Shown here one piece after another: positions 44,249 to 64,000 of a stretch of DNA of 64,000 nt; the stretch's first letter is position 1; each line of letters starts with the position of its first letter. The stretch comes from Moritella marina ATCC 15381 (GTDB taxonomy: Bacteria > Pseudomonadota > Gammaproteobacteria > Enterobacterales > Moritellaceae). The stretch is taken from assembly GCF_008931805.1 (NCBI RefSeq), contig NZ_CP044399.1, positions 2,728,001 through 2,792,000 on the forward strand, in the 5' to 3' direction. The notes beneath the pieces were generated by a model. The model was not told where the DNA came from. It ran no database searches and was given only the letters and a program-made list of their open reading frames with translations. The translations under genes were made by a program, and so were the position numbers.

Positions 44249-44410
44249 CTATTTTTTTATAATGCTATTTTTGACAATATTCGTTTTAACTAGCTTAGTT
44301 TTGACCAGTTTCGTTGAATGACGGCTATAGCTAACAATACTGCTAACAAAAAACCAGCACGGCAAAATCATTATAAAAACAACCAATAACGCATAATAAT
44401 AGAAAGCCAT
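44249..44410 (-). CDS. Small single-pass membrane protein, unknown
   Basis: A 53-residue protein starting M-A-F-Y-Y-Y-A-L-L-V-V with one hydrophobic helix (residues 3-28) and a basic tail holding the repeat T-K-L-V-K-T-K-L-V-K-T-N-I-V-K. A strong ribosome-binding site (GAGGA) lies four bases before this ATG, while the longer frame to 44458 has none. The positive-outside or inside sense is probably N-out, C-in. No family recognised. Confidence 0.5.
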   Translation of the reverse strand: MAFYYYALLVVFIMILPCWFFVSSIVSYSRHSTKLVKTKLVKTNIVKNSIIKK

Positions 44411-44565
44411 ACAGTCCTCTTTTAGCTCGCATAGAAATAATGTTGAATCCTTCAACAATAAACAAGACTACCAACAATTGGTTAGTTTAATAGGCGTTAT
44501 GCAAGAATAGCGGTTATTTAATTTTGTTTTGCGGCAAGGATCATATTTCATCACATTCAGTAATG

Positions 44566-44599
44566 AAGCAGCGCTATGATAAAGCTCATAGCGCTGCTT
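44566..44599 (-). terminator. Perfect 14-bp hairpin after ybbP
   Basis: AAGCAGCGCTATGA pairs with TCATAGCGCTGCTT around a 6-base loop, 11 bases after the ybbP stop on the minus strand. There is a T-run only on the plus-strand side. It could be a terminator or a stabilising 3' hairpin. Confidence 0.55.
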
Positions 44600-44610
44600 T
44601 TCAGGATAAG

Positions 44611-47127: not shown

Positions 47128-47129
47128 TG

Positions 47130-47912
47130 CTATTCACTCACCTGTTTTACTATAGATTGCTCGGCTGTAGATGACTTTGCTATAATTTTCTCTGCTATAA
47201 CGTCCGTGACAATAGATTCAGCAATCGCACTGGTTTCTGTTAACTGACCACTTTCCATTGTCACTTGACGCTGACAACGCGCGGCTAATTTCGGGTCGTG
47301 CGTTACCAATATCAAGGTAGTGCCTTGCTGTTTATTAATTTCAAACAACAGATCTGCAATGTGTGAACCCGTTTTAGTGTCTAAGTTACCAGTTGGTTCA
47401 TCAGCAAATAAAATCGCAGGTTTAGAAATGAAAGCACGGGCAATAGCCACACGCTGCTGCTCGCCACCCGAGAGTTGTGAAGGGAAATGTTCAGATCTAT
47501 CAGCTAAATCAACCTTGGCTAACAATTCACGTGCTAATTGCTCTGGATTATCCATACCCGCTAACTCAGCCGGTAACATGATATTTTCCAATGCAGTTAA
47601 ACTGTTGATCAATAAGAATTGTTGAAAGATAAAACCAACATGTTGAGCACGAACGGCACTGCGCTGCTCTTCATTAAATTGGTGCAATGGTTGGTTTTTA
47701 AGAAAAACTTCACCGCTCGAAGGTAAATCTAATCCCGCTATAATAGACAATAGGGTAGACTTACCTGAGCCAGACGCGCCAACAATCGCCAATGAGTCAC
47801 CAGCGGTTACTGCTAAGTCCATCGGATGTAAAATATCCAAGGTCTTAGCCTCTGTTTTGACTGATTTAGTTAAGGCACTTACTTTTAATATAACGTCGGA
47901 ATGTAGCTTCAT
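47130..47912 (-). CDS. ybbA: ABC transporter ATPase YbbA
   Basis: A 260-residue LolD/MacB-type ATPase. Walker A is G-A-S-G-S-G-K-S-T-L, signature L-S-G-G-E-Q-Q-R-V-A-I-A-R-A, Walker B I-L-F-A-D-E-P-T-G-N-L-D. The last 40 residues are an extra tail rich in Ile, Thr and Ser. It powers YbbP, encoded two bases downstream. The start codon overlaps the start codon of the divergent tesA (positions 47910-47913 read CATG), the closest possible divergent arrangement. Confidence 0.92.
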   Translation of the reverse strand: MKLHSDVILKVSALTKSVKTEAKTLDILHPMDLAVTAGDSLAIVGASGSGKSTLLSIIAGLDLPSSGEVFLKNQPLHQFNEEQRSAVRAQHVGFIFQQFLLINSLTALENIMLPAELAGMDNPEQLARELLAKVDLADRSEHFPSQLSGGEQQRVAIARAFISKPAILFADEPTGNLDTKTGSHIADLLFEINKQQGTTLILVTHDPKLAARCQRQVTMESGQLTETSAIAESIVTDVIAEKIIAKSSTAEQSIVKQVSE

Positions 47913-48537
47913 GTTTAAAAATGCCTTTAAAGTATTATTATTGATGGTTATCTTGTTACCTGCAGCACATGCTACAGCTAACCATAAAATTTTGTTATTG
48001 GGTGACAGCCTCAGCGCGAGTTACGGTATGACACAAAGTGAAGGCTGGGTAACCCTGCTTAATCAACAGTTATCCGAGCAAAATGCACCATACAACATCA
48101 TCAATGCCAGTATCAGTGGCGAGACTACCGCAGGCGGTCTATCGCGCTTACCAGGCATTTTAGCTAAGCAATCTATTGACACACTCATCATCGAACTCGG
48201 TGGTAATGACGGTTTACGTGGCTTTCCACCGAAATTAATCAAAAGCAATTTAGCAAAAATGGTTGATTTAGCCCACGCCAAAAATATTCCAGTCTACGTC
48301 ATGAATATTCGTATTCCACCTAATTATGGCCCACGCTACAGTAAAATGTTCACCGATGTATTTGCTCAAGTAGGCAATGAAAAAGACATTACCGTACTGC
48401 CATTTTTCATGGAGCAGATAGCCGTTGATCCAAGCTTAATGCAAAACGATGGTATCCACCCAAACCGGTTCGCCCAGCCTAAAATAGCTGACATCATGTC
48501 AAAGCAATTAGCGACTATGTATAACGCGCCAAACTAA
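47911..48537 (+). CDS. tesA: TesA-like multifunctional esterase (SGNH/GDSL)
   Basis: A 208-residue periplasmic hydrolase with a signal peptide (M-F-K-N-A-F-K-V-L-L-L-M-V-I-L-L-P-A-A-H-A). Block I is L-L-L-G-D-S-L-S-A-S-Y-G (Ser nucleophile), block III G-G-N-D-G-L-R-G, block V D-G-I-H-P-N. This is thioesterase I/lysophospholipase L1/arylesterase. It acts in the periplasm on acyl-CoA, lysophospholipids and esters. The start at 47911 was chosen because the 18 residues before it look like YbbA-overlapping read-through. Same genomic partner genes as E. coli (ybbA-ybbP). Confidence 0.93.
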   Translation: MFKNAFKVLLLMVILLPAAHATANHKILLLGDSLSASYGMTQSEGWVTLLNQQLSEQNAPYNIINASISGETTAGGLSRLPGILAKQSIDTLIIELGGNDGLRGFPPKLIKSNLAKMVDLAHAKNIPVYVMNIRIPPNYGPRYSKMFTDVFAQVGNEKDITVLPFFMEQIAVDPSLMQNDGIHPNRFAQPKIADIMSKQLATMYNAPN

Positions 48538-48668
48538 CTGGCTGTTATGAGCGATGATAAGCGATAAATGTGTAACTGATTAAGATAAACCACTTTGCTT
48601 GGCGTTGTCAGGATTGGTTTCACAAATGCAGGTAAAGAATTGTCAGGAGGATTGTTTTAGCGCGATAA

Positions 48669-51149
48669 TTAAAACAATCCCATTTGTTGATCGGTTATCA
48701 AATCAAAACTCAAGCCAATAAATGGCAAGATACCATCAGCAATTGGTTTTAATTGTTTTTCAATATAGTGCTCGAAATCCAAGACAGAATATTGATGTTC
48801 AACCGCTTCAGGACCACTCAAGGTGAGTACATAACTGATCCACGCTTTATGCTGATAACGCAAAGGTTGGCCTAATTGACGGTTTTTTTCATCCGCTGCA
48901 CGTGCTGCTTTTACATGGGGTGGTACATTCTTCACATATAAAGCCAATTCTTGGCGCAAGCGTTTACGATAAACGAGCTTATCATTGAATTCACCGGCCA
49001 AGGTCTTCTCGACAATTTCTAACACATAATCTTTAACAGCCAAACCATGGAACACTCTATGGTATAACTCCATTTGGAACATTTTCGCCAGATCAGTCCA
49101 ATCGGTGCGCACAGTTTCTAGTCCTTTAAAGATCAGCTTTTCACCCTCTTTGGTATTAACTAAACCGGCATAACGTTTTTTACTGCCTTTATCTAAACCA
49201 CGAATGGTTGGCATTAAAAACTTGTGATAATGCACTTCATATTCAATATCTAAAAAGCAATCAATGTCGTAATCTTCACGTAAGTGGCGTTGCCATTGTT
49301 GGTTAATGTATTCCGACAGTTCAGCGCCCATACGATCAGCTTGTAAACCGCGTTCAGCAGGCGAACCATCACCATCAGTAAATTTAGCGGCATCAAGTAA
49401 TACAAAGGTAGAATCAGTATCACCATAAATAACCTTATAGCCTTTGGCTTCAATCCAGGTCGCCGTTGTCTGCATGATCTCTTGACCACGCATAGTGATT
49501 GATGAAGCTAAACGGGTATCATAAAAACGACAACCACCAGAGCCTAGCACCCCATAAAACGAATTCATTAAAATCTTAATGGCTTGCGAACGCGCGGCAT
49601 CTTTCTCAAGCTTGGCTTGATCACGCTGCGACCACAGTTCGGTAATAATATCGGGCAAATAATGCTTATCACGATCAAACAAACCACCACGAAAACCAGG
49701 GATTGCCTCTGTCGGGTTTTGTACCCCTTCTAACAACCCAACCGGATCAATTTTGAAGGTGCGAATAATCGACGGGTACAGACTCTTAAAATCCAACACG
49801 ATCACGTGATCATATAACCCCGGGAATGAATCCATGACATAACCGCCGGGACTGGCCATTACCCCACTCTCACGCAGGTTTGGCGCAATATAACCAGCAC
49901 GATGTAACTTCGGCAGGTATACATTCGTAAACGCCAGCACAGAGCCACCGTTACGATCTAATTCTAACCCCGTTAACTGCGAGCGTAATAATAAGAAATC
50001 CAACAAGCGCGTTTTAACGAAGATATCCCACACTAAGACGCAGTCTTGCAGGTTGTACTTGGCTAACTTAGGTTTGTTGAAATGAAAGTCATGGGTGATC
50101 TGCTCTAAACGGTTATCAACATCTTCGGTATCTTTACCAACGCCGAGTATTTCTTGCGCGATGTTTTCGAGACTAAAACTTGGGAAGCTATAAGTCGCAG
50201 TTTTAAGACTATCAATACCATCAACCACCACACGACCATGCAAGGTTAAAAAGCCTTGCTGTTGCGGCGTGCGACCATCGCGCCAATGCAGGTTTTGGCC
50301 ACCACGACCCAATGCTAATTTAAGATTATGGAATGTGGCGCGCACCGCCAATAATCGAAAATCAAAATTAATGACATTCCAACCAATAAAGATGTCCGGA
50401 TCATAGCTGATCACGAATGCTTGCAGTGCCAATAATAGGCTTTTCTCGTCAGCAACCCAGTGGATCAATGGCTCATCGTCAGGATCTTGCGCTAAATTGT
50501 TATCCGCTTGTATTTGTGCCTGCGCTAAACCTTTATCAAGTTGCTCGCCTATCATGTAAACCCGTTTAAAAGGCTTACCGTTAGGGCAATAGGCTGGGCT
50601 TAATGAATACAAACCAATAGAGTAAAGTTCGCCATGTTCTGAACACTCGATATCCAGCGAGATCTGTTTAATTTTGTCGACTAAGTTATCTGGTAATTCA
50701 GCTGGTTTAAGCTGTGCTTGTTGAAATTCAACATAGCCTTTACGTTGTACTGGTATGCCAGTGAATTCGACAGCACCTTTCACAAAACGCTCCATGAGAT
50801 AACGCTCTGCCGGACGAATATCCGCTTCTAATACCGTAACCAGCTTACGTCTTAATAATTCTTGTGCGCGATGATAGTCATGGGACGTCTGGAAATAAAA
50901 CGCGCTCATCAGTTCTAAATCAAAACTACGTAGCTGTAAATTTTTATAATTAAAGCGTGGATTAAGCTCACTTAAACACGCTAATGCCGTGGTCAGTTGA
51001 TCTTGAGGAATGAACATGACGAGCGGCTGAGTTGCCGGGATCAATTTAACCGCCCCCATTTCAGACGCTAACCAGTAACTTAATTCGTTGTTACCATTAC
51101 GATCACGGCTATGGCGCGATAATAAAAAACCCAGATATGTAGCAGACAA
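48669..51149 (-). CDS. polB: DNA polymerase II PolB
   Basis: An 826-residue family-B polymerase. It has an N-terminal exonuclease (D-I-E-C at ExoI, then F-I-G-W-N-V-I-N-F-D at ExoII) and polymerase motifs D-F-K-S-L-Y-P-S-I-I (A), K-I-L-M-N-S-F-Y-G (B) and Y-G-D-T-D-S-T-F-V (C). It ends M-G-L-F like E. coli PolB, which supports the identity. The start is TTG at 51147-51149, matching E. coli at M-A-Q-A-G-F; the first ATG is 30 codons later. It is an SOS polymerase for restart and translesion synthesis. A LexA box lies 27 bases upstream of the start. Confidence 0.94.
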   Translation of the reverse strand: MSATYLGFLLSRHSRDRNGNNELSYWLASEMGAVKLIPATQPLVMFIPQDQLTTALACLSELNPRFNYKNLQLRSFDLELMSAFYFQTSHDYHRAQELLRRKLVTVLEADIRPAERYLMERFVKGAVEFTGIPVQRKGYVEFQQAQLKPAELPDNLVDKIKQISLDIECSEHGELYSIGLYSLSPAYCPNGKPFKRVYMIGEQLDKGLAQAQIQADNNLAQDPDDEPLIHWVADEKSLLLALQAFVISYDPDIFIGWNVINFDFRLLAVRATFHNLKLALGRGGQNLHWRDGRTPQQQGFLTLHGRVVVDGIDSLKTATYSFPSFSLENIAQEILGVGKDTEDVDNRLEQITHDFHFNKPKLAKYNLQDCVLVWDIFVKTRLLDFLLLRSQLTGLELDRNGGSVLAFTNVYLPKLHRAGYIAPNLRESGVMASPGGYVMDSFPGLYDHVIVLDFKSLYPSIIRTFKIDPVGLLEGVQNPTEAIPGFRGGLFDRDKHYLPDIITELWSQRDQAKLEKDAARSQAIKILMNSFYGVLGSGGCRFYDTRLASSITMRGQEIMQTTATWIEAKGYKVIYGDTDSTFVLLDAAKFTDGDGSPAERGLQADRMGAELSEYINQQWQRHLREDYDIDCFLDIEYEVHYHKFLMPTIRGLDKGSKKRYAGLVNTKEGEKLIFKGLETVRTDWTDLAKMFQMELYHRVFHGLAVKDYVLEIVEKTLAGEFNDKLVYRKRLRQELALYVKNVPPHVKAARAADEKNRQLGQPLRYQHKAWISYVLTLSGPEAVEHQYSVLDFEHYIEKQLKPIADGILPFIGLSFDLITDQQMGLF

Positions 51150-51175
51150 AATTAACCAGAAAAAATAGTTTAAGA

Positions 51176-51191
51176 CTGGTTAAGTGTACAG
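51176..51191. promoter_or_regulatory. LexA (SOS) box upstream of polB
   Basis: CTGGTTAAGTGTACAG matches the CTG-N10-CAG pattern exactly and shares 11 of 16 positions with the E. coli consensus. It lies just before polB, a LexA-regulated gene in E. coli. Confidence 0.78.
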
Positions 51192-51562
51192 CATATTTAG
51201 AAATGTGAAAATGGCTGTGACAGCACGATAAAATACCGACGCTAACAAACATATTAAGCATGTTTAAAAAACGATGAATATATAACCCAAAGCACTGTAA
51301 ACAGACTATGGAGCAGACAACACTACCTACAAAAAGTTGCATAAAACAGGTTAAGTTCACACCTTTTTTTCTCACTGAAAATCTTAGTTTACTAAATTTT
51401 TCAATCTGGTATATTTTCTTTCGTTCCAGCTGTTTATATTCGCGTCCCATTTGGTTCGCTTGATTGATTGTGTGAGACACAAACAACGAGCTGCTTTAAT
51501 CTATACCAAATGTGCCAGTTGTCTTTGGGATCTAAAAATATGCATCTGTTATCAAATTAATC
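51192..51562. other. Intergenic region between polB and the ter cluster
   Basis: About 370 bases with no convincing gene. A minus-strand frame (51109-51486) crosses it but overlaps the polB start and has no family resemblance. Promoters for both divergent directions should be here. Confidence 0.5.
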
Positions 51563-51599
51563 AATGTAATAGTGATATGATTTTTGCCACTATTACATT
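51563..51599. promoter_or_regulatory. Perfect 12-bp inverted repeat before the ter cluster
   Basis: AATGTAATAGTG (51563-51574) and CACTATTACATT (51588-51599) are perfect arms with a 13-base loop. It ends 32 bases before the first TerD start. No T-run follows, so an operator or a 5' leader hairpin fits better than a terminator. Confidence 0.7.
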
Positions 51600-51631
51600 T
51601 TCACCTACAACATATTATTTAGGAATAGTTT

Positions 51632-52240
51632 ATGTCTATATCGCTCGAAAAAGGTCAACGAATTAGCTTAGAAAAAAATGGTCAACAGCTGAATAAAGTA
51701 TGTGTTGGTGTTAACTGGGGCGCGATTGAAAAGAAAGGCCTCTTTGGTGGCATTAAGAAAGTAGCTGTTGATTTAGATGCAAGTGTGTCCCTGTATTCAG
51801 CAAGTAAAGATTTGCAAGACCTGATCTATTTTGGACAACTAGTAAGTAAAGACGGTTCTATTGTTCACAGTGGTGATGATACAACCGGTGATCTTGATGG
51901 CGATGATGGTTTAGATAACGAAGTTATCACCGTGAATCTAGCGCAAGTACCAGCAAACGTAAACTTTGTGGCGATTATTTTAAATAGCTATAAAGGTCAA
52001 GACTTTGCAACAATCCCATTCGCAAGTGTTCGCTTGTACGAAGGTACCCCAACACGTGTTGATCAAGTAGTCGCGAATTATAACATCGCTAATGATGCTA
52101 AATTTAGTGGTGCAGTATCTATGGTTTTAGGTTCTTTTTATCGCCACAATGGCGCATGGAAGTTCAAAGCAATTGGTGAACCGACACAAGACAAAAAACT
52201 AGAGCAATTAGTAAAAACAGTGGCAACTAGTTACCTATAA
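51632..52240 (+). CDS. terD: TerD-family stress protein (TerD/TerZ-like)
   Basis: A 202-residue TerD-fold protein. It has V-G-V-N-W-G, V-D-L-D-A-S-V-S-L, the Ca2+-binding acidic stretch G-D-D-T-T-G-D-L-D-G-D-D, and [13 protein letters not shown]. TerD proteins bind Ca2+ and act in ter stress systems that give tellurite and phage resistance. AGGAA lies seven bases before the ATG. First gene of the cluster, followed closely by TerB. The extra D-N-E-V-I-T insert and G-L-F-G-G loop make it a TerZ/TerX-like variant. Confidence 0.93.
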   Translation: MSISLEKGQRISLEKNGQQLNKVCVGVNWGAIEKKGLFGGIKKVAVDLDASVSLYSASKDLQDLIYFGQLVSKDGSIVHSGDDTTGDLDGDDGLDNEVITVNLAQVPANVNFVAIILNSYKGQDFATIPFASVRLYEGTPTRVDQVVANYNIANDAKFSGAVSMVLGSFYRHNGAWKFKAIGEPTQDKKLEQLVKTVATSYL

Positions 52241-52279
52241 TTGAAATACTAATTAATAAAAATAGTAGAGGTTAATAAC

Positions 52280-52732
52280 ATGAGTTTTTCAAATTTTTTA
52301 TCTGGACTGAAAGAAAAGACCAATGAATTAAAAGATGAAGTTTTGAAATTTAAGAATAAAAACTTCTTACATGCTGCAACGGCAGGTTCTGCACTGATTG
52401 CAATGGCAGATGGTTCAATTGATTCAGCTGAAAAACAAAAAATGCTGAAACTAATTGAAAACAATGATGCCTTAAAAGTATTTAAAACATCTGATGTGAT
52501 CAGTTCTTTCACTGAGTTTTTAAACAACTTTGATTTTGATAAAGATGTTGGTGAATCTAAAGCCTGTGAAGCATTAAACCGTATCAAAGATAACAATGTC
52601 GAAGCAAGAACTGTGATGCGCTTAATTTTAGCCATTGCCGCTTCAGATGGTGTTTTTGACCAAGATGAAAAAATCGTAGCAATTAAAATTGCAAAAGAAT
52701 TAGGTTTAAACCCAGCAGACTTTGAACTTTAA
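52280..52732 (+). CDS. terB: TerB-family stress protein
   Basis: A 150-residue all-helical protein of the TerB fold. It has A-G-S-A-L-I-A-M-A-D-G-S-I-D-S-A-E-K and A-I-A-A-S-D-G-V-F-D-Q-D-E-K, the paired acidic motifs that bind metal in TerB. TerB interacts with TerD and TerC in membrane-associated ter complexes. AGAGG precedes the ATG. It sits between two TerD genes, in the classical order D-B-D-like. No TerC accompanies it in the window. Confidence 0.93.
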   Translation: MSFSNFLSGLKEKTNELKDEVLKFKNKNFLHAATAGSALIAMADGSIDSAEKQKMLKLIENNDALKVFKTSDVISSFTEFLNNFDFDKDVGESKACEALNRIKDNNVEARTVMRLILAIAASDGVFDQDEKIVAIKIAKELGLNPADFEL

Positions 52733-52827
52733 TTGTCATAATAAGCGAGAGCAATTACGGTCTATATATGATGTGTAATGCTTACCCGTTTAAATTAAAT
52801 ATTATCTTATATTATTAAGGAAGAAAT

Positions 52828-53406
52828 ATGTCAGTATCATTACAAAAAGGCGGCAACGTTTCGCTAGAGAAAGCAGCACCAGGAATGAGCAAATGCATTT
52901 TAGGACTTGGCTGGGATACACGCGCTACAGATGGCGTTGATTTTGATTTAGACGCATCAGTATTTTTAATTAATGCTGAAGGTAAAATCCGTCAAGACAC
53001 AGATTTTATCTTTTATAATAACCTTAAATCAGTTTGTGGCTCTGTTGAGCATACTGGTGATAACCAAACTGGTGAAGGTGACGGCGATGATGAAGCAATT
53101 AAAGTAAATTTATCATTAGTACCTGCAGATGTAGTTAAGATTGTTATTGGTGTTACGATCCATGATGCTGAAGCAAGAAACCAAAATTTTGGTCAAGTTT
53201 CAAATGCATTCATGCGTGTTGTAAACGAAGAAAGTAAAACAGAAGTGATCCGTTATGACCTTTCTGAAGATTATTCGACAGAAACTGCATTATTGTTTGG
53301 TGAGTTATACAAGCATAACGGTGCTTGGAAATTTAAAGCGATCGGACAAGGTTTTGCTGGCGGTTTAGCACCAATGGCGCGACAGTACGGCGTTAACTTA
53401 GGTTAA
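52828..53406 (+). CDS. terD: TerD-family stress protein
   Basis: A 192-residue TerD protein close to classical TerD/TerE ([49 protein letters not shown] and [17 protein letters not shown]). The acidic motifs bind Ca2+. AAGGAAG precedes it at good spacing. It is followed by a terminator hairpin, then the HAD gene 133 bases later, suggesting two transcription units within the cluster. Confidence 0.94.
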
Positions 53407-53436
53407 TTCTTAAAAATTGATTTAATCAGTAATTAT

Positions 53437-53470
53437 AAAATCCGATAATCGAATATGATATCGGATTTTT
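53437..53470 (+). terminator. Terminator between the ter genes and the HAD/PRTase genes
   Basis: AAAATCCGATA and TATCGGATTTTTT pair with T-run after. The HAD gene starts 70 bases further, so read-through or a second promoter must serve it. Confidence 0.75.
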
Positions 53471-53539
53471 TATATTTAAAATTAAAAATCTAAAATTAAA
53501 CATCATGCTGTTTTACTTCAGCGTTGAAGGTGATGACTT

Positions 53540-54298
53540 ATGACGACTAAATCACAACGAATTATTGTATTAACAGATCTTGATGATAGCTTATTCCAAA
53601 CATTAAAAAAAATCCCTGAAGGCGTATCATCACTGCCTGTAGCGACTGATAGAGATAATAACCCTTTATCATACATGACCAATCCACAACGCATATTTTT
53701 TGATATGTTGGTCAATTCAGGTGCCGAAATAATTCCGATTACCGGTCGTAATACCGATGCATTAGAAAGGGTCAGTTTACCTTTTGGTAAATATAGCTCA
53801 GTATCCCATGGTGCTATCGTACTTGATGACAATAACCAAGTTTGTGCCGAGTGGTTACAGTGGCTAAATATTGATACTGCCACATTTGCCAACTTGCTTG
53901 ATAATATCAATGATCGCGTGCAAACCATTATTCATACCCAGTCATTAGATGCCCGCAGTCGCGTGATTGTAGATCAGGGTATTCCCGCATACGTGTCGAT
54001 AAAAGGCATGGATTCCGACCTCAATGAGATTTACAAGGCATTACCAGAATACAATCAACATGAAACATTAAGATTTCATCGTAACGGCCGTAACATGGCC
54101 TATATTCCCGCGATATTCTGCAAGAAAAATGCGGCTGAATTTATTTTAAAACAGTTAAACGTACAACCAGATGATTTGGTTTTAACTGTCGGTGATAGCA
54201 TTAGTGATTTACCTATGATGCAGACAGGTACTTATGCTATTGCACCGTTAAGAAGCCAGCTTGCGACTGATATATTTAAAACTCAATTAAGTGAATAA
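53540..54298 (+). CDS. HAD-family phosphatase of the ter cluster
   Basis: A 252-residue HAD phosphatase, Cof/sucrose-phosphatase-like. Motif I is V-L-T-D-L-D-D-S-L (D at about 12), motif II I-T-G-R-N, then G-D-S-I-S-D-L-P-M with the C-terminal metal Asp pair. Such HAD enzymes accompany ter-linked PRTase and TRSP genes in other bacteria, where they are thought to process a nucleoside-like metabolite. It overlaps nothing but ends two codons from the following PRTase gene. AAGG precedes the ATG. Confidence 0.85.
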   Translation: MTTKSQRIIVLTDLDDSLFQTLKKIPEGVSSLPVATDRDNNPLSYMTNPQRIFFDMLVNSGAEIIPITGRNTDALERVSLPFGKYSSVSHGAIVLDDNNQVCAEWLQWLNIDTATFANLLDNINDRVQTIIHTQSLDARSRVIVDQGIPAYVSIKGMDSDLNEIYKALPEYNQHETLRFHRNGRNMAYIPAIFCKKNAAEFILKQLNVQPDDLVLTVGDSISDLPMMQTGTYAIAPLRSQLATDIFKTQLSE

Positions 54299-54301
54299 AC
54301 A

Positions 54302-55384
54302 ATGAATTACAATTTCGATACCCAAGCAGGGCTCATTTCTCTTAAAGTATTAAACACGAAAAAGCCGGTGGACGATTTATTAACATTCGCCTGTCGTCAA
54401 AACCCTAAACGTAGTTTTATGCTGGTAAGTAAAGTGCTTGGCCGATACACACCGACAAAACCGAACGTGATGAGAGAAGTTTATAACTATTTATCACAGG
54501 CGGTTGAAGGTGATAAATTAACTTACGTTGTTAGCTTGGCAGAAGCGGCAACCGGATTAGGCGCTGGTGTTGCAGATAGTCTAGCAAGAAAACAACAATC
54601 TAAGGTTTATTTTCAACATACGACACGCCATAGATTAGATGTTCCGCTGTGGTTTACAGTCGATGAAGCACATAGCCACGCCGTTAATCATATGTTTTAT
54701 GCACCGAAAGCAGAATTGCTTGATGGCATTCGTCAATCGAATCGCTTAGTGGTTATTGATGATGAGATCACGACGGGTCGTACAATTAAATTATTGATTA
54801 CCAGTCTATTAAAGAAATTAGACAATATTGATGAAATTAAAATTCTGTCTTTAGTTAACCTGTTAGATGAGGACTTGAGACTAAAGGAAGACGATTTCGG
54901 TATTAAAATTAATTACTTTTCATTAATGGATGCGCAAATATCTATCGACCCAAAAGACGATTTCAGACCTGAATTACCTCAAAATGTAGACGCAGGACTA
55001 TGTGAATCGCATTCATCAGCAGATTTGGGCCGATGCGGTATGCTAATGCCATATACGGGTGATTTACCAAACATAAAATCATCCAATAAAATGACTATAG
55101 TGGCGAATGGTGAGCATCAATACATCCCGTTTTTAGTTGCAGAGCAGCATGAAAACCAGGGTTGTCATGTATTGTACCAATCAATTAATCGATCACCGTT
55201 ATTAGTAGGCGAATCGATTGATAACAAATTAGCTTTCTCATTTAATGGCAGTGAACTTGAACACTATATCTATAACTTCTATCCAGAAAATAGGGATGTA
55301 TATGTGCTACTCGAGAGCGAAAGTGCCAGAGATAAGCATGATTTTGCAAGAGAGTATCCATTGCGCTGTGTTGAAGTGGCTTAG
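54302..55384 (+). CDS. PRTase-TRSP protein of the ter-associated metabolic module
   Basis: A 360-residue protein. Its first 230 residues are a phosphoribosyltransferase fold with PRPP-binding loop V-V-I-D-D-E-I-T-T-G-R-T. The C-terminal half holds the TRSP-type region (C-E-S-H-S-S-A-D-L-G-R-C-G-M). PRTase/TRSP pairs occur in ter neighbourhoods and are inferred to synthesise a nucleoside- or base-like product from PRPP. Substrate unknown. It starts three bases after the HAD stop, so translation is coupled. The next PRTase-PELOTA gene follows after about 70 bases. Confidence 0.85.
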   Translation: MNYNFDTQAGLISLKVLNTKKPVDDLLTFACRQNPKRSFMLVSKVLGRYTPTKPNVMREVYNYLSQAVEGDKLTYVVSLAEAATGLGAGVADSLARKQQSKVYFQHTTRHRLDVPLWFTVDEAHSHAVNHMFYAPKAELLDGIRQSNRLVVIDDEITTGRTIKLLITSLLKKLDNIDEIKILSLVNLLDEDLRLKEDDFGIKINYFSLMDAQISIDPKDDFRPELPQNVDAGLCESHSSADLGRCGMLMPYTGDLPNIKSSNKMTIVANGEHQYIPFLVAEQHENQGCHVLYQSINRSPLLVGESIDNKLAFSFNGSELEHYIYNFYPENRDVYVLLESESARDKHDFAREYPLRCVEVA

Positions 55385-55452
55385 ATGATCTTAACGCTAG
55401 ATGTAAGCAGGCTATTTTCCGATATTCAACTAAATGATAAAAGTTGCTGACT

Positions 55453-56562
55453 ATGATTGAAATGATAAACACAACTAAAGCCCCTTTACTAGGCAGCTAC
55501 CGTGCCGACGATTGTTTATTTTTATTAACAAAAGTTGAACCAGAATTTTATACGATTGAAGATAAAGAACGCCTCATTCAAACTGGGGCAATGCATTATT
55601 CAGAAATGGTGAATCAAGAATCAGCGCCATCACCCGAATATGCTGAATTATTTGTCAGTCTGACGGCACAATACAAGCAACGCCTTGCTGATGAAGTGTT
55701 ACAACTGAGCAAAATGATTATAGATAATCGCTTGAATGATGTTTGTATCGTGTCTTTAGTTCGCGCTGGTACGCCTATCGGCGTGTTATTGAACCGAGCG
55801 CTCAAAACATACAGCAATGTAAATACGTCACACTACTCTGTTAGTATCATACGTGACAAAGGCATTGACGAAAATGCCCTCGACTACCTCATCAAGCATG
55901 AAAAAATAAAGCCTGAGAGCATTGTTTTTGTTGATGGCTGGACAGCGAAAGGCGTTATTACCCAAGAACTGAAAGCAGCGATTGGTCAATATAATAGCAG
56001 TCGTAATGTAAATATTCCTGACCAGTTATTTGTTATTTCAGATATCGGCGGTACAGCTGACTACTCTGCGACATTTGATGACTATGTTATTCCCAGTGCA
56101 TTGATGAATTCGACCGTGAGCGGGCTAGTAAGTCGTTCTATTCTTAATCATCAGATTGGTGAAGATGATTTCCATGGTTGTATTTCTTATTCACATTTAG
56201 AAAGTCATGATCACTCAAATTGGTTTGTCGATCAGGTTTCAGCCTGTTTTACCGCAAACAGCTTTGATACGCCATTACCACAAGCAGCTATCCCAGCTGC
56301 ATTGCGCCAAAAAAACACCCATGATTTTTTACAAAAAATCATGCAGCAATTTAACGTGTCTAATTATAACCGCATCAAGCCAGGTATAGCTGAAGCGACG
56401 CGTGTTATGTTAAGAAGAGTACCTGATTTATTGATTGTTCAAAGCAAAGTAGATCCAAGTACAGTGCACTTACTCAAACTAGCAAGTGAAAAATCAATTG
56501 AGATAATCGAAATGCCTGAGATGCCATTTGGCGCTTGTGCTTTGATTAAAGACGTAAAATAA
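55453..56562 (+). CDS. PRTase with C-terminal PELOTA-like domain (StiP-type)
   Basis: A 369-residue protein with PRTase motif I-V-F-V-D-G-W-T-A-K-G-V (a diverged PRPP loop), preceded by S-L-V-R-A-G-T-P-I-G. The last 90 residues (P-D-L-L-I-V-Q-S-K-V-D through E-M-P-F-G-A-C-A-L-I) fit a PELOTA/L7Ae-type RNA-binding domain. The family is often labelled StiP. I use ATG 55453; a TTG at 55444 would add three residues. With the preceding PRTase-TRSP it forms the usual two-PRTase core of this module. Role inferred from neighbours. Confidence 0.82.
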   Translation: MIEMINTTKAPLLGSYRADDCLFLLTKVEPEFYTIEDKERLIQTGAMHYSEMVNQESAPSPEYAELFVSLTAQYKQRLADEVLQLSKMIIDNRLNDVCIVSLVRAGTPIGVLLNRALKTYSNVNTSHYSVSIIRDKGIDENALDYLIKHEKIKPESIVFVDGWTAKGVITQELKAAIGQYNSSRNVNIPDQLFVISDIGGTADYSATFDDYVIPSALMNSTVSGLVSRSILNHQIGEDDFHGCISYSHLESHDHSNWFVDQVSACFTANSFDTPLPQAAIPAALRQKNTHDFLQKIMQQFNVSNYNRIKPGIAEATRVMLRRVPDLLIVQSKVDPSTVHLLKLASEKSIEIIEMPEMPFGACALIKDVK

Positions 56563-56586
56563 TTTTTCGATCATAAGCAGGATAAA

Positions 56587-57198
56587 ATGAAAATAGCATT
56601 ATTTGATTTTGATGAAACATTAGTAGAAGAAAACTCATTAGGTTTTTTGTTTAAGCATTTTTTAGGGAAAACGCCATTACCACTGCAATTATTACCTTTA
56701 TTACTAAAACCGTCTACCTATAAACAGCCGGTTAAAACATCCATTAAGACGCATTTTTATAAGCAATCATTGAATGGTAAAACATCCGCAGAGGTTTTTG
56801 CCGCAGGCGAATCACTGTTTCAAAAAGTAACGCCAATTGATGAAGTCGTGAATATGATGACAGCGTTACATGATAGCGGCATGCAAGTGTGGATTGTGAC
56901 AGCATCACCAGAGCAATATATTGCAGGTATCGTCAAACAATTAGGATGGCCAATTGAACGTGTTATCGGCACGACTATTTTGGAAAAAAATGGCTGTTTT
57001 ACCGGTGATATTGACAGCGAATGCCAAGAGCAAGAAAAAGTACGCCGCTTAGATGCCATTTTTAATGACAGCAGTATTACCTTTCAGGTTGAACAAGCCT
57101 TTGGGAACTTACCTGTAGATATCCCAATGTTAAAAATGGCTAAGAAAAGATTTTATGTATTAGACAGTATCGTGAAGCCCTATGAAAAATCTGAATAA
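56587..57198 (+). CDS. HAD-IB phosphatase
   Basis: A 203-residue HAD-superfamily phosphatase of the PSP/SerB-like IB subfamily. Motif I is F-D-F-D-E-T-L-V, a helical cap follows, motif II V-T-A-S-P, then Q-E-Q-E-K-V-R-R-L and the G-N-L-P-V-D-I-P-M motif III. AGGA precedes the ATG. It is 24 bases after the PRTase-PELOTA gene and in the same direction, so it likely belongs to the same metabolic module as a second phosphatase. Substrate unknown. Confidence 0.88.
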   Translation: MKIALFDFDETLVEENSLGFLFKHFLGKTPLPLQLLPLLLKPSTYKQPVKTSIKTHFYKQSLNGKTSAEVFAAGESLFQKVTPIDEVVNMMTALHDSGMQVWIVTASPEQYIAGIVKQLGWPIERVIGTTILEKNGCFTGDIDSECQEQEKVRRLDAIFNDSSITFQVEQAFGNLPVDIPMLKMAKKRFYVLDSIVKPYEKSE

Positions 57199-57326
57199 GG
57201 TTTGCTCTTTTTAGCGCTTTAACGACACAAAATCTATTGTAGGCTATGTGCGTATTAGCATGTTACTGTAACCGTTAAAATCGACAGTTTTTAACACTAA
57301 TAAATTATAATACTGGAATGTAAAAA

Positions 57327-58412
57327 ATGAACTTGATTGATAATGTATGGCCCTTTTTATTAATTCTACTCTCATGTTATTTATTAAAATATGCATGTGA
57401 TACTTTTGAACAAGCTGCTTCTTACCTTGGCCGCAAATTTCCACCTGGTGTTAAAGGCGCCACCGTAAATGCTATCGGGTCAAGTATGCCTGAAATGTGT
57501 GTTGTGATTGCTTGTTTATTTTGGTTCGACGATCCATCATTAGTGATGGTTGCACTAGGTGTAACTGCAGGTTCTGCTATATTTAATGGTTGTGTGATCC
57601 CTGCACTTTCGATCATCATGGCGAAAGACGAAGACGGTAAAGCCGTGAATTCAATAAAACTCACAAAGCGTGTGTTAGTACGTGATGTTTTCTGGGTATT
57701 ATTCGCTGAAATCGCCTTGATTATCTTCCTAGGTTTCAACGCATTTACGCTTTGGATGGCCGTTGTATTGAACGTTATATACTTAGGTTACGCAATACAT
57801 TTGTATATTGATGCAAGAAGTCATCAAGAAGTTGAAGATGAGTATGAATATGAAGAAATTGAAGATCGTGGCAAATTCTTAAATTTAATGACATTCAACT
57901 TTAATACGCTGTTCTTTTCAAACAGGCCCTTCACCTTAGTATCTGCACTTGTTGTGTTAGTGCTGGCGATCGCGATTATTTCTGGTTCTTCACATTTATT
58001 AGTTGAAGGTGTATTAGGCAGCGCAAGCGTAATGGGTGTTCCTCAATTCTTTGCTGGTCTAATCTTCGGTTCTGCCGCTTCGTCAGTACCTGATCTGATG
58101 TTATCAGTGAAAGATGCTCAAAAAGGTGAGTATGAAGATGCTGTTGCGAACCCGTTAGCATCTAACACGTTCGACACGACTGTTGCATTTGCTTTACCAC
58201 TATTAGCTTGGTTCATGATCAACGGTGTCGAACAACTACCTTTAGTACAAGATGAAAGCCTTACGTTATTACGTTGGTCTATCGTGGGTATCACAGGTGC
58301 AGTAGCAGCAAGCTTGTTATTCAACTATAAGAATGTAACAAAAACTGTTGCTTACTTCTTGTTGTCTATGTTTGTCGTTTGGGCTGGCGCTATGTATGTA
58401 TTTATTGGTTAG
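57327..58412 (+). CDS. Ca2+/cation exchanger (CaCA family) ending the ter cluster
   Basis: A 361-residue inner-membrane antiporter with ten or so segments. The two alpha-repeats are visible: G-A-T-V-N-A-I-G-S-S-M-P-E in the first half (about 45-57) and F-G-S-A-A-S-S-V-P-D in the second (about 248-257). CaCA transporters exchange Ca2+ for Na+ or H+. An acidic central loop (Q-E-V-E-D-E-Y-E-Y-E-E-I-E-D) could bind Ca2+. It sits where TerC would be expected beside Ca2+-binding TerD proteins. A terminator follows at 58458. Confidence 0.9.
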   Translation: MNLIDNVWPFLLILLSCYLLKYACDTFEQAASYLGRKFPPGVKGATVNAIGSSMPEMCVVIACLFWFDDPSLVMVALGVTAGSAIFNGCVIPALSIIMAKDEDGKAVNSIKLTKRVLVRDVFWVLFAEIALIIFLGFNAFTLWMAVVLNVIYLGYAIHLYIDARSHQEVEDEYEYEEIEDRGKFLNLMTFNFNTLFFSNRPFTLVSALVVLVLAIAIISGSSHLLVEGVLGSASVMGVPQFFAGLIFGSAASSVPDLMLSVKDAQKGEYEDAVANPLASNTFDTTVAFALPLLAWFMINGVEQLPLVQDESLTLLRWSIVGITGAVAASLLFNYKNVTKTVAYFLLSMFVVWAGAMYVFIG

Positions 58413-58457
58413 TGTTCAATAATTAACCCGCTCAATCAATAAGTCTTTTTAAGTTAT

Positions 58458-58492
58458 AAAAAACGCCTCATGCACTGCATCGGGCGTTTTTT
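58458..58492 (+). terminator. Terminator of the ter cluster
   Basis: AAAAAACGCC pairs with GGCGTTTTTT around a 15-base loop, 45 bases past the exchanger stop. Confidence 0.85.
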
Positions 58493-58540
58493 ATTTCAGC
58501 ATATAACGAAATCCGATCAACGTTATATCTAAATCATACC

Positions 58541-58580
58541 TAACTATACCTAACTACGCCTAACTACGCCTAACTACACA
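58541..58580. repeat. Four tandem 10-bp TAACTAYRCC repeats
   Basis: TAACTATACC, TAACTACGCC, TAACTACGCC and TAACTACACA lie head to tail, about 100 bases before the MFS gene. One helical turn per copy places each on the same DNA face. Confidence 0.8.
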
Positions 58581-58682
58581 CAAACATGTAATCCGATGTC
58601 CTGATTTGTTTAAAATATGTTATAAAGTTTACATAAATAATGAATTAACAATTTTAGACTTAATAAAGAAGAGACCACGCTT

Positions 58683-60827
58683 GTGACCACGACTCTGAAA
58701 CCTTTTATATTGCTACTTGTCAGTGGCTTTTTACTCATGCTTGGCTACGGCTTGAGTAACATCCTCTTGCCTGTTCGCATGCAAAATGACGGTATCAGTG
58801 TCGATAACATAGGTATCATCTTATCTATGCTATCTGTCGGTTTCTTATTGGGTGCAATCTATAGCCGTACGCTATTACAGCGGGTTGGCCATATTCGTAT
58901 ATTTGCCATGTGCGGTAGCTTAACGTCAGTGGCTATCTTGCTTTCAGGCCTATACCCAGAGCCATTAATGTTAGCTGCAATGCGTATGCTGACAGGATTT
59001 TGTATGGCGTGTGCCAATGCCACACTCGATAGCTGGTTAAGTCATAGTGCTACAGAAGAAAGCCGTGGGCGCATATTATCGATTAACCAAATGGTGATCA
59101 TGTCTGCGCTGTTCTCTGGTCAATTTTTGTTAAACGTAGCCCCCGTCACCGACGTCACCTTGTTTGTTATCTCCGGGATTCTCTTTAGTCTTTCTATTAC
59201 ACCTATGGTGATCAGCAAACACCAAGGACCGCTGATTGAAGACAGTCAATCCATGTCCTTAATGACCATTATGAAGCTGTCACCACTCGGTGTTATCTGC
59301 TGTTTTTATGGTGGGTTTCTTTATGCTGGCTTAGTCAACATGCTCCCTATTTTTGCCAGTGATAATGGTATTCAAGGTTTTAGCTTGTCGATATTTATGG
59401 GAGCATCGATCTTTGGCGCCATCATTTTTCAATATCCAATAGCCTATTTATCCGACCGTTTCGACCGCCGTAAAACCATGATAGGCATGGTTCTCACGAT
59501 AGCCGCTTTATCTTTATTAGTACCGTTGCTGATCAATTCATCACAATTTAATATCACCTTGTTAACGATTGCCATCGTAATGGGCTTAACCGCTTGCCTC
59601 TATCCGATGAGCATGTCTGAAACCTTCGATAAAGTATTGCGGGAACAAATCCTCGCAGCGATGGGATCTTTACTCCTCATTTATGCATTAGGCAGTATTC
59701 TTGGCCCCAACCTCGCCTCTATCGTGATGAACATATTTGGCAGTGCCGCATTATTTTCATTCATGAGTATCACGGCGCTGACACTATTGGTATTTATCTT
59801 AGGGAATATGCTTAATCAGACAGCACTGCCACGTGATGAGCAAGAAAACTTCATTATGCAAACGCCTTCTGGTGTCGCATCGGAACTGGATCCTCGAACC
59901 CAATATGCACAACCTTCTTTTGAACAAACATCAGAAGTTGAAGTGGCGATTAGTTTAGCAGCGAACAACCCTGCCGCTGCCGTGAACATGGCCAAAACCT
60001 TAGCGATGCGCGATCCCAATGATGCCTCAAACTTAGCGGCGGCACTCAGTACCATTGACGAAATTGATATCAGCCGTTTGTACCGTGCCATCACAGCAGC
60101 AGCACCCGAAATGAGTATTCATATTGCCGAAGCGTTAACCAATGCCTCGCCAGAACAGGCTGAAGAATTAGTCGAGTGGATCACTACTGAGCGTCCCGAT
60201 CAATTTACTAATATAATTGTTGCCATCGCCAATTCAATGCCAGATAACGGGATTGATGTGATGGAAGTTGCCGCAGAGAATATGGTTGAAGATCACCAAG
60301 ATGAATTACTCGAAATGACCGACCAGTATATGACCAGTCTTTCCGATTCATTAGATGATATGCGTCCCGTCGATCGTACAGCTGCCGCATCAGAACAAAC
60401 AGCAACCGAGCTATATAACCGTTTAACCGACGTATCACCGACGCAATCAGCCGACTTCGCTCTCGCAGTATCTGAAGCATACCCAGAGTCATCAAATGTC
60501 GTTGCCGAAGCTTATGTAAGTAATCTGATTGAAAGCGAGCAAGCGACACCAGGCGATGCCACTGCGAACATTGAAAGTGCGGTAAATGATTACGTCACGC
60601 AAGTTGCTGAGACTATCCCTGAATACGCTGCCGATATCGCCAGCACTATGATTGATTCTGTGCCTGATATTGCCTCTGATATGGTTGAGATTTTACAAGA
60701 CTCAGATGTGTTTGATGACAGCGAACTAAGCACCTCAATTAAAGACAAACCTGAGCATGATGAACTTGAAGAACAGCTACAATATGCCGTACAAACGCAG
60801 GCTGATGAGATAGATAAGCATAGTTAA
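58683..60827 (+). CDS. MFS transporter with a long acidic helical C-terminal tail
   Basis: A 714-residue protein. Residues 1-390 are a 12-helix MFS transporter (G-Y-G-L-S-N-I-L-L-P, D-R-F-D-R-R-K-T-M between halves). Residues 395-714 are soluble, acidic, Ala-rich and helical, with repeating units such as N-N-P-A-A-A-V-N-M-A-K-T-L-A, D-P-N-D-A-S-N-L-A-A-A-L-S and A-P-E-M-S-I-H-I-A-E-A-L-T. Ordinary MFS carriers stop at about 400 residues. GTG start with AAGAAGAG upstream. Substrate unknown. The tail may be a cytoplasmic interaction module. Confidence 0.85.
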   Translation: MTTTLKPFILLLVSGFLLMLGYGLSNILLPVRMQNDGISVDNIGIILSMLSVGFLLGAIYSRTLLQRVGHIRIFAMCGSLTSVAILLSGLYPEPLMLAAMRMLTGFCMACANATLDSWLSHSATEESRGRILSINQMVIMSALFSGQFLLNVAPVTDVTLFVISGILFSLSITPMVISKHQGPLIEDSQSMSLMTIMKLSPLGVICCFYGGFLYAGLVNMLPIFASDNGIQGFSLSIFMGASIFGAIIFQYPIAYLSDRFDRRKTMIGMVLTIAALSLLVPLLINSSQFNITLLTIAIVMGLTACLYPMSMSETFDKVLREQILAAMGSLLLIYALGSILGPNLASIVMNIFGSAALFSFMSITALTLLVFILGNMLNQTALPRDEQENFIMQTPSGVASELDPRTQYAQPSFEQTSEVEVAISLAANNPAAAVNMAKTLAMRDPNDASNLAAALSTIDEIDISRLYRAITAAAPEMSIHIAEALTNASPEQAEELVEWITTERPDQFTNIIVAIANSMPDNGIDVMEVAAENMVEDHQDELLEMTDQYMTSLSDSLDDMRPVDRTAAASEQTATELYNRLTDVSPTQSADFALAVSEAYPESSNVVAEAYVSNLIESEQATPGDATANIESAVNDYVTQVAETIPEYAADIASTMIDSVPDIASDMVEILQDSDVFDDSELSTSIKDKPEHDELEEQLQYAVQTQADEIDKHS

Positions 60828-60836
60828 CAGATAAAA

Positions 60837-60873
60837 AAAGAACTAACCAGCAAGTTAATGTGATTAGTTCTTT
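60837..60873. terminator. Bidirectional terminator between the MFS gene and nhaD
   Basis: AAAGAACTAA and TTAGTTCTTT form a 10-bp stem with A- and T-tracts on each side, serving two convergent genes. Confidence 0.75.
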
Positions 60874-60931
60874 TATCGATAAAGGATTAGTCTGTTTGTT
60901 TATCACAGCTAATCCGTTTATTTTTTCACTA

Positions 60932-62368
60932 TTACATAATGGCTGAGTTCAGCCATAGATGACAAAGAATTGAAGCGATGTAACCCAGTGCAATTACAGG
61001 AGCCCAACGTAAGTGACCAGCAAACGTATACAGACCACGTGCCTGACCCATTAGCGCTACACCAGCGGCAGAGCCGATAGACAGTAAACTACCGCCCACG
61101 CCTGCTGTTAGCGTCACTAATAACCATTGGCCTAATGACATATCAGGTTGCATGCTCAATACCGCAAACATCACCGGAATATTATCAACAATCGCCGACA
61201 GTACACCTACCGCCACGTTCGCCATAGTAGTATCCCACGTGCCATACATGATGCCAGATGCCAAACTTAGGTAACCCATAAAGCCTAAACCACCCACACA
61301 CATAATAACGCCGTAAAAGAATAGCAAGGTATCCCATTCCGCTTTAGCCACTTTGTGGAATACGTCAAACGGCACTACGCCACCAAGCTGTTGTAAGGTT
61401 TTTTCATCCTGAGCAAGTTCCGCTTTCGCGCGTTTACGTTCTAACGAAATTGGTAATGTTTTACGTAAGAAATAACCGAAGAATTGTAGATAACCTAAAC
61501 CTGTCATCATACCCAGTACTGGCGGCATATGGAGTACACTGTGCGCAGCAACTGCGGATGCAACAGTCAGTAGGAATAGCAACACAATACGCTTAGCACC
61601 ACGTTTAGTGTGAACCGTTTCTTGTACGCCAGACAGCTTTTCACCCTTGGGAATGAATAATGTCATGATCGCCGCTGGAATAATGAAGTTCACCACAGAT
61701 GGTAAAAATAATGCCGCGAATTCATTAAATTCAACCATACCTTTTTGCCAAACCATTAGCGTTGTAATATCACCAAATGGACTGAACGCACCACCGGCAT
61801 TAGCTGCGACAACAATATTAATACAAGCAAGGTTAATAAATTTCTTATTTTCCCCAGCTACTTTTAATACTACAGCACACATCAGTAGCGCTGTTGTTAA
61901 GTTATCGGCAATCGGCGAGATGAAGAATGCCAGAATACCCGTTAACCAAAACAGTCCTCTTAAATCCAAGCCTTTACTTAACATCCAACTGCGCAATGCA
62001 TCAAACAATTGACGCTCTTCCATCGCGTTGATGTAAGTCATCGCTACCAGTAAGAACAGTAATAACTCTGCATACTCGAGCAGGTTATGCCTAAACGCAG
62101 CCTCTGCGACATCGGACATACCTAGGCTGGCATAGTGCCAACCGATCAGAGCCCAAATGACACCAGCCGCGACCAGTACAGGTTTTGATTTTCGTAAATG
62201 TAAATGCTCTTCCGCCATTACCAGCAAGTATGCGCAGGTAAAAATAATGATAGCAAAATAGCCTATTCTGGATGTGGTGAGATCAATAACGTCCCCACCA
62301 CCTGACGCAAATGCAAACGTTGCAGGCGCGAGTCCAAACAAAATAATTAAAATAAGCTTCATTGCCAT
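60932..62368 (-). CDS. nhaD: Na+/H+ antiporter NhaD
   Basis: A 478-residue inner-membrane antiporter. It has a cleavable-looking N-terminus (L-F-G-L-A-P-A-T-F-A-F-A) and the NhaD core S-P-I-A-D-N-L-T-T-A-L-L and N-A-G-G-A-F-S-P-F-G-D-I-T-T-L, with ion-binding Asp. It extrudes Na+ (and Li+) in exchange for protons, common in marine bacteria. AGAGGGAAGG eight bases before ATG 62366-62368 decides the start; a longer frame adds 40 residues without signal. Divergent from the ybdG-like gene. Confidence 0.94.
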   Translation of the reverse strand: MAMKLILIILFGLAPATFAFASGGGDVIDLTTSRIGYFAIIIFTCAYLLVMAEEHLHLRKSKPVLVAAGVIWALIGWHYASLGMSDVAEAAFRHNLLEYAELLLFLLVAMTYINAMEERQLFDALRSWMLSKGLDLRGLFWLTGILAFFISPIADNLTTALLMCAVVLKVAGENKKFINLACINIVVAANAGGAFSPFGDITTLMVWQKGMVEFNEFAALFLPSVVNFIIPAAIMTLFIPKGEKLSGVQETVHTKRGAKRIVLLFLLTVASAVAAHSVLHMPPVLGMMTGLGYLQFFGYFLRKTLPISLERKRAKAELAQDEKTLQQLGGVVPFDVFHKVAKAEWDTLLFFYGVIMCVGGLGFMGYLSLASGIMYGTWDTTMANVAVGVLSAIVDNIPVMFAVLSMQPDMSLGQWLLVTLTAGVGGSLLSIGSAAGVALMGQARGLYTFAGHLRWAPVIALGYIASILCHLWLNSAIM

Positions 62369-62679
62369 GTTATGTGCCTTCCCTCTCAAAATGATAAAAA
62401 CCTGTTTAATGTATGTTATAAAATTGTTTTCTGCCATTGGCAAAATCCTTTTTAGTGAGGTAATAGCTATTTTTATGTTTTTTATCAAAAAATCTTCATC
62501 AATCGGTCACGTTAAATACATCTCCAGGATATTTACCTGTGACTGCGATTAACAATAATAATAAGATAAGCGCTTGAACTTAGATTAACGATTACCTAAC
62601 ATCCCACAGTCATTAATATTAATGACTACTATTGATGACTCACATTTATTACCACTTTACATTCACAAGGATATCCACA
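62369..62679. promoter_or_regulatory. Divergent promoter region of nhaD and the YbdG gene
   Basis: About 310 bases without a gene. A perfect 20-bp palindrome lies at 62608-62627 (separate entry). No other site recognised. Confidence 0.5.
62608..62627. promoter_or_regulatory. Perfect 20-bp palindrome, candidate operator
   Basis: AGTCATTAATATTAATGACT is fully self-complementary. It lies about 50 bases before the ybdG-type start and about 240 bases before nhaD. It is typical in shape for a dimeric repressor site. No regulator gene is next to it. Confidence 0.55.
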
Positions 62680-63942: not shown

Positions 63943-64000
63943 CATTAGCCCAATCGTGATCATAATTTAAAGGGTGTTTCTAATAATAAAAACGAAATAA

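Follow-up and report, generated by a model that had tools for sequence, protein, structure and literature searches.

A Ter/StiP gene cluster of Moritella marina with a CaCA-family exchanger in the place of TerC

A compact cluster of ter-related genes was analyzed in a 64,000-nucleotide stretch of the complete (100%), 4.76-Mb genome of Moritella marina ATCC 15381 (contig NZ_CP044399.1, positions 2,728,001 to 2,792,000, hereafter the window). The cluster occupies positions 51632-58412 of the window and encodes, on the + strand and in this order, a TerD, a TerB, a second TerD, a HAD-IIB phosphatase, a PRTase_2-TRSP phosphoribosyltransferase (PRTase), a StiP-PELOTA protein, a HAD-IB phosphatase, and a CaCA-family exchanger (Table 1). 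The gene order given in an earlier note, which had been made from the sequence alone, was thus recovered, with all eight genes on the + strand and with domains that match Pfam. The first HAD gave the weakest Pfam match of the eight proteins, still over its cut-off, and the other seven were well above theirs. TerD, TerB, PRTase_2-TRSP, HAD-IIB, and StiP-PELOTA, all present in this one cluster, are features of the known Ter/StiP module.

Table 1 Features of the ter cluster and its borders in the window.
Feature	Position	Strand	Remarks
Whole inserted segment, approximate	51216..58579	none	between polB and MFS gene; from flanks of the L126 empty site
TerD-family protein a, 202 aa	51632..52240	+	Pfam TerD 2.1e-41
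TerB-family protein, 150 aa	52280..52732	+	Pfam TerB 3.4e-18
TerD protein b, 192 aa	52828..53406	+	Pfam TerD 5.9e-85
Hairpin then T run 3' of TerD b, possible terminator	53434..53472	+	-12.6 kcal/mol, z -2.55
HAD-IIB (Cof-like) phosphatase, 252 aa	53540..54298	+	Hydrolase_3 1.9e-7, 31.6 bits, cut-off 20.9
PRTase_2 phosphoribosyltransferase with C-terminal TRSP, 360 aa	54302..55384	+	PRTase_2 1.2e-52, TRSP 1e-9; motif VVIDDEITTGRT
StiP (PRTase-like) with C-terminal PELOTA_1, 372 aa from TTG	55444..56562	+	StiP 2.6e-98, PELOTA_1 8.6e-29
HAD-IB phosphatase, 203 aa, in the C-C lyase slot of most TerC-type loci	56587..57198	+	HAD 1.1e-24
CaCA (Na+/Ca2+ exchanger family) membrane protein, 361 aa	57327..58412	+	Na_Ca_ex 1.7e-26
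Exchanger acidic loop EVEDEYEYEEIED, between the two repeats	57828..57866	+	sequence and alignment of relatives
Strong terminator-like hairpin 3' of exchanger	58456..58494	+	-20.8 kcal/mol, z -6.37

The exchanger contains two Na_Ca_ex repeats (93.4 bits for a family cut-off of 24.9, in two stretches), as members of the CaCA superfamily do, and the acidic and amide ion-site positions are conserved in both. It aligns with NCX_Mj and human NCX1; residues E56, N87, D256, and D283, invariant in all 12 aligned members, pair with the NCX_Mj residues E, N, E, and D, the ion ligands of that protein. While it shares the two repeats and the matching acidic and amide positions with these two exchangers, the window protein is bacterial, is encoded in a ter cluster, and has only a short acidic loop, where NCX1 carries a large regulatory insert. 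The acidic loop, already pointed out in the earlier note, was confirmed, its YEYEEIED motif being nearly invariant among close relatives. A K+-dependent exchanger was considered because of a weak match to TIGR00927 (40.6 bits vs 710) and rejected, as the NCX1 chain, too, has the SVPD motif seen in the second repeat. The protein is a probable Ca2+ exchanger.

No gene for TerC, TerA, or ATP-grasp was found near the cluster. In the whole genome, no protein matched TerC over the family cut-off, and the best two of three weaker matches are LysE-type proteins. TerA is likewise missing from this genome, as it holds only two TerD-domain genes. The only frame resembling ATPgrasp_Ter, 1,073 residues long, scored 25.5 bits, below the 29.1 cut-off, and is probably a carbamoyl-phosphate synthase, given its length; the C-C lyase had no match in the genome. 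The absences that the earlier note had listed near the cluster therefore extend to the genome as a whole, and what it had named as contrary to its reading did not occur here: neither a TerC over the cut-off nor a convincing Ter ATP-grasp is encoded elsewhere, and the co-occurrence of the exchanger with ter genes is clear.

This co-occurrence was seen when the exchanger was searched for in a genome collection, which returned eight distinct loci, 76-97% identical. In seven of them, TerD genes, PRTase_2-TRSP, HAD-IIB, StiP, HAD-IB, and TerB lie within about 10 kb of the exchanger; four belong to Psychromonas and one each to Colwellia, Pseudoalteromonas, and Moritella. The eighth, in Neptunomonas antarctica (L032), has no ter-cluster genes nearby. 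The same gene set, which the earlier note had suggested looking for, thus recurs in other genera and for this reason is more than a chance assembly. After those of M. dasanensis, the closest relatives of the window exchanger, StiP, PRTase, and HAD-IB are at the loci L029 and L072. The gene order varies: the exchanger comes last in Moritella and precedes the PRTase in the other eight exchanger loci.

The relation between the exchanger and TerC was examined in an evenly drawn sample of 394 genomes (the order sample), with E-values up to 1e-60 for the exchanger and up to 1e-10 for StiP. The exchanger was found in 8 genomes and StiP in 22; StiP lay no more than a few kb from any of the eight exchangers, and every one of the 22 StiP loci had one of the two membrane proteins but never both, the exchanger in 8 and TerC in 14. 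We also annotated 31 StiP loci, namely the window, the seven exchanger loci of the genome collection, eight loci from StiP searches, and 15 from the order sample, using profiles built from the first clusters (those for the lyase, ATP-grasp, and TerC rest on Pfam-checked proteins). All 22 StiP genomes of the order sample are represented among these loci, seven of them through loci of the other sets, matched by coordinates. Ten loci encode the exchanger without TerC, 17 TerC without the exchanger, four neither, and none both (Fisher p 2.3e-5, uncorrected for kinship and with loci partly gathered through the exchanger itself). Several stretches stop at contig ends (e.g., L031, L033, L041, and L042), so that absence there means absence from the sequenced part. 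The table leaves out G252, whose StiP is cut off in a 1.8-kb stretch, sub-threshold StiP matches, the Neptunomonas cluster L125, and the plasmid loci L136 and L137; if added, L125 and L137 would each count as TerC without exchanger and L136 as neither. The claim that the exchanger sits in the place of TerC holds, then, for the window and for nine other loci.

A class sample of 369 genomes, searched at E-values up to 1e-40, contained besides the window genome only two distant exchangers (39% and 32% identity), and the genome with the first has a divergent StiP on another contig. In a family-level sample of 360 genomes centred on the Colwellia genome, the sole exchanger at E-values up to 1e-60 was that of the centre itself. 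A close exchanger (71% or more) is therefore rare, and all 11 genomes found with it carry StiP.

The exchanger could nevertheless be a passenger, i.e., a gene of Na+/Ca2+ homeostasis that is of use in cold seawater and happens to reside in a mobile cluster without taking part in Ter, TerC having been lost separately. This would fit with the Neptunomonas exchanger lying away from its ter cluster, with the position of the window exchanger as the last gene, 128 bases after HAD-IB, and with its higher conservation over the same nine loci (71-97% identity to the window vs 42-96% for StiP and 32-96% for PRTase), as would be expected of a gene that spreads separately. However, the eight exchangers of the order sample all adjoin StiP, and TerC is found at none of the ten exchanger loci, so that we regard a passenger as unlikely.

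A second replacement, absent from the earlier note, marks this variant beside the exchanger: HAD-IB takes the place of the C-C lyase. C-C_Bond_Lyase is encoded at 20 of the 21 StiP loci without the exchanger and is missing from the window cluster. Where present, it lies directly beside StiP in 19 of 21 loci (L074 and L086 being the exceptions), and HAD-IB directly follows StiP in nine of the ten exchanger loci. The tenth, L073, combines an exchanger (71% identity) with a C-C lyase, has no HAD-IB in its cluster, and shows no TerC over the cut-off genome-wide; because of this locus, the two swaps are separable. The catalytic positions of HAD-IB (D7, D9, K151, and D178) are invariant in all nine proteins, which also share the conserved motif GNLPVDIPML and have N174 where the first acid of the last motif is usual. 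StiP itself had no match in the PDB at E-values up to 0.01.

The window cluster departs in this way from the usual composition of Ter/StiP loci, as it lacks TerC (present in 17 of the 21 loci without the exchanger), the C-C lyase, and ATPgrasp_Ter (12 of the 17 TerC-type loci). It might be argued that it is a decayed canonical Ter cluster whose remainder persists without its old function after the loss of TerC, TerA, lyase, and ATP-grasp. The last three are indeed absent from the window genome, and a third TerD is apparently split between two frames in the exchanger locus L030. Yet all eight frames of the window are open, the set is kept across Moritella, Psychromonas, Colwellia, and Pseudoalteromonas at 31-100% protein identity, and the HAD-IB catalytic residues do not vary, making decay highly improbable. 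The missing ATP-grasp, correctly noted at first as an absence, does not single out this variant: it is encoded at none of the ten exchanger loci and is also lacking from five of the 17 TerC-type loci, which would equally suit a history of loss.

The history of the variant was examined with trees, of which those of StiP, PRTase, and TerB were flagged for long branches. In the StiP and PRTase_2-TRSP trees, nine exchanger loci group together and adjoin the TerC-type loci L039, L040, and L125, and L073 (same genus group as Psychromonas; cluster at 7658-18481) falls among loci with TerC and the lyase. A single origin of the ten exchanger loci was rejected (AU test, p 1.3e-16 for StiP and 4.0e-14 for PRTase) and appeared in 0 of 200 bootstrap trees. 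In the TerD tree, a supported group contains 12 rows from exchanger loci, one L073 TerD included, and one row from the TerC-type cluster of Neptunomonas, a genome that also holds the exchanger. A second L073 TerD falls with those of Moritella and Neptunomonas, and the third lies apart. That the TerDs of exchanger loci gather together is expected if TerD and the exchanger work together. The exchanger thus goes with two separate enzyme-gene lineages and one TerD lineage, with TerC excluded from the locus, which argues against its being a mere passenger. The trees would fit two histories, namely two displacements of TerC or, as the TerD tree suggests, an exchange of enzyme modules around a core made up of the exchanger and TerD. 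Module swapping explains the rejected single origin as well as repeated displacement does, and it is possible because the L073 TerDs fall with those of other exchanger loci and of Neptunomonas, the clusters being mosaic.

The earlier note had described the TerDs as Ca2+-binding. Klebsiella TerD has two Ca2+ sites, the residues of which are listed in PMC8779313. TerD b aligns with Klebsiella TerD (2kxt) collinearly and without gaps, with 10/10 Ca2+-site positions identical, and TerD a keeps 8/10. These residues would support the description, and a Ca2+ link of the cluster fits with them. At another Ter/StiP cluster, an adjoining gene (L043, 12507-13511) carries a weak TerD-like stretch (24.6 bits, just below the cut-off) fused to a trypsin-like peptidase domain.

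In Moritella, the cluster is an insert in the gap that separates polB from an MFS gene (window positions 51150-58680). M. dasanensis (L035) has the same cluster in the same place, with proteins 95-100% identical and DNA 91% identical over 7,245 columns. In the other nine Moritella genomes searched, we found no StiP, no exchanger (E-values up to 1e-60), and no cluster gene in the polB-MFS stretch. Seven of these have a gap of 169-248 bases between polB and MFS, and the flanks of one such empty site (L126) align to window positions 51090-51215 and 58580-58711; in the two others (L128, 3369-6009, and L129, 3407-6251), the gap is wider, at 2.6 and 2.8 kb, with other genes inside it, among them a TonB-dependent receptor in L129. 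The presence of the cluster in Moritella is patchy, since genomes whose polB is as close to that of the window as that of M. dasanensis, or closer (96%, 95%, and 95% vs 94%), lack it. A degenerate direct repeat of the polB start region (51132-51198 and 51302-51369, ~74% over 68 bases) lies immediately within the insert at its left end, with a similar one in M. dasanensis; it may be a trace of the arrival of the cluster. The MFS transporter on the other side (58683-60827, 714 residues) has a long acidic tail of some 300 residues at its C terminus and full-length relatives in the ten other Moritella genomes.

The uneven occurrence of the cluster, at a site open to other inserts as well, could point to an anti-phage defence system built on Ca2+ signalling, as the earlier note had considered. 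Elsewhere, ter genes are stated to affect phage inhibition (PMC12054061), and Acinetobacter phage ME3 encodes a StiP homologue. Against this, a defence-system library gave no match for seven of the eight proteins and only weak PRTase_III-A matches for the remaining one (best 8.6e-5, 20.3 bits), and no exchanger relative was confirmed in viral contigs. Those flanking genes that were scanned with Pfam (for PolB, MFS, and a CitMHS-family transporter) are not defence genes. Plasmids yielded one distant haloarchaeal exchanger match, and a StiP relative in 2,568 of 72,556 records, many of them probably near-copies. Nothing here supports anti-phage action specifically, and we consider such a role quite unlikely.

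Some features of the cluster concern its expression and composition. The hairpin after TerD b was matched or bettered by 4 of 200 shuffles and that after the exchanger by 0 of 200; neither is listed in the promoter/terminator scan, which showed no excess over shuffles (19 vs 27.5, and 4 vs 4.5), and transcription units beyond these two hairpins are guesses. The StiP gene has an alternative ATG start at 55453. A manganese riboswitch was looked for and rejected, as no Rfam match exceeded the gathering score in window positions 47000-62000. The G+C content is 36-39% in three 2-kb bins within the cluster vs 40-44% in the bins of 44001-52000 and 58001-64000, but other bins of the window are equally low (34.5% at 20001-22000), and taken alone this proves little.

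A Ter stress system with a PRTase/HAD/StiP/C-C lyase module was reportedly described by Anantharaman, Iyer and Aravind in 2012. The window cluster resembles it by TerB, TerD, PRTase_2-TRSP, HAD-IIB, and StiP-PELOTA in a compact cluster, and differs by a CaCA exchanger for TerC, HAD-IB for the C-C lyase, and the lack of TerA and ATP-grasp. With the classical tellurite operon of Klebsiella and E. coli, terZABCDEF, it shares TerB and TerD homologues, TerD b being collinear with Klebsiella TerD, but it has the exchanger and an enzyme module instead of TerC and TerA. Among the papers listed by our literature search, none is indicated to describe an exchanger-for-TerC swap; the 2012 work lay outside its coverage and may mention one. 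A paper on TerD and an exchanger (PMC9111180) deals with a nucleotide exchange factor. Transport of Mn and Ca has been connected with TerC and its relatives (PMC10550928), and TerC itself with TerB and TerD (PMC12054061). MeeF and MeeY of Bacillus subtilis (PMC10550928) are membrane proteins linked to divalent metal handling and presumably functional counterparts of the exchanger, although they belong to a TerC/LysE-related family and not to CaCA. In the Ter scheme of a jumbo-phage review (PMC7824862), the signal comes from PRTases and HADs and may be sensed by TerB and TerD, and TerC is a membrane part.

The cluster is a real, conserved variant of the known Ter/StiP module, and its architecture is well supported. 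Our preferred interpretation, held with moderate confidence, is that of a Ter/StiP stress module of patchy distribution whose CaCA-family exchanger stands in for TerC. The exchanger would export Ca2+ or a similar divalent cation in return for entering Na+; within the cytoplasm, this cation might also be bound, and either reported or buffered, by the two TerDs, with TerB bridging them to the membrane protein. The product of PRTase_2-TRSP, StiP-PELOTA, and the two HADs could be a small nucleoside-like molecule that acts as the signal for the response or carries it out, and HAD-IB would take over, or render needless, the C-C lyase step of other loci. The identity of the ion as Ca2+, its outward transport, and the metabolite are inferences; on the simplest joint reading, TerC and the exchanger would each handle a divalent cation that TerD senses.

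Several observations weigh against the exchanger as a substitute for TerC. Four of the 31 StiP loci have neither membrane protein, and the same is true of a Vibrio StiP locus. Among the ten genomes with an exchanger cluster, Psychromonas sp. SP041 (G630) is the only one with TerC over the cut-off, encoded together with TerB and three TerDs at a separate locus (L124, 7084-11036). Exchanger and TerC can also share one genome because N. antarctica has both, a TerC-type StiP cluster (L125, 8327-15554) with no C-C lyase or HAD-IB nearby, and the lone exchanger elsewhere (L032, 9995-11086), 80% identical to that of the window. No ter genes were found in the 20 and 10 kb examined around the two distant exchangers of the class sample. 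The exclusion between HAD-IB and the C-C lyase is less strict than that between the exchanger and TerC, since four of the TerC-type loci (L075, L077, L084, and L085) also contain a weak HAD-IB-like gene. The TerB tree also rejected one origin (p 0.002) and placed Moritella, L073, and Neptunomonas together; the window TerB is 71% identical to those of Neptunomonas and L073 and 35-43% to those of the seven other exchanger loci outside Moritella. TerC may have been displaced only once, with a later exchange of enzyme modules around the TerD-exchanger core. Klebsiella TerC was reported, from a heterologous test, not to be a Zn/Mn efflux protein (PMC12054061). Finally, an AlphaFold model of the exchanger, made with nine close relatives, reached a mean pLDDT of only 38 and was not used.

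A broader possibility, which we put forward tentatively, is that Ter systems come in two interchangeable forms, with TerC or with a CaCA exchanger, that would do the same job of exporting the Ca2+ or like cation sensed by TerD, the exchanger form having a shorter biosynthetic route in which HAD-IB supersedes the C-C lyase. TerC is central to ter phenotypes, and its transported substrate, if any, is unsettled; the presence of a well-understood ion-exchanger family in its place points to cation transport. If this is true, the role of TerC in Ter systems would also be divalent-cation handling at the membrane. An exchanger in the place of TerC allows direct swap experiments in marine bacteria, and the small conserved enzyme set, with two PRTase-like proteins and two HADs, offers a place to hunt for the proposed metabolite.

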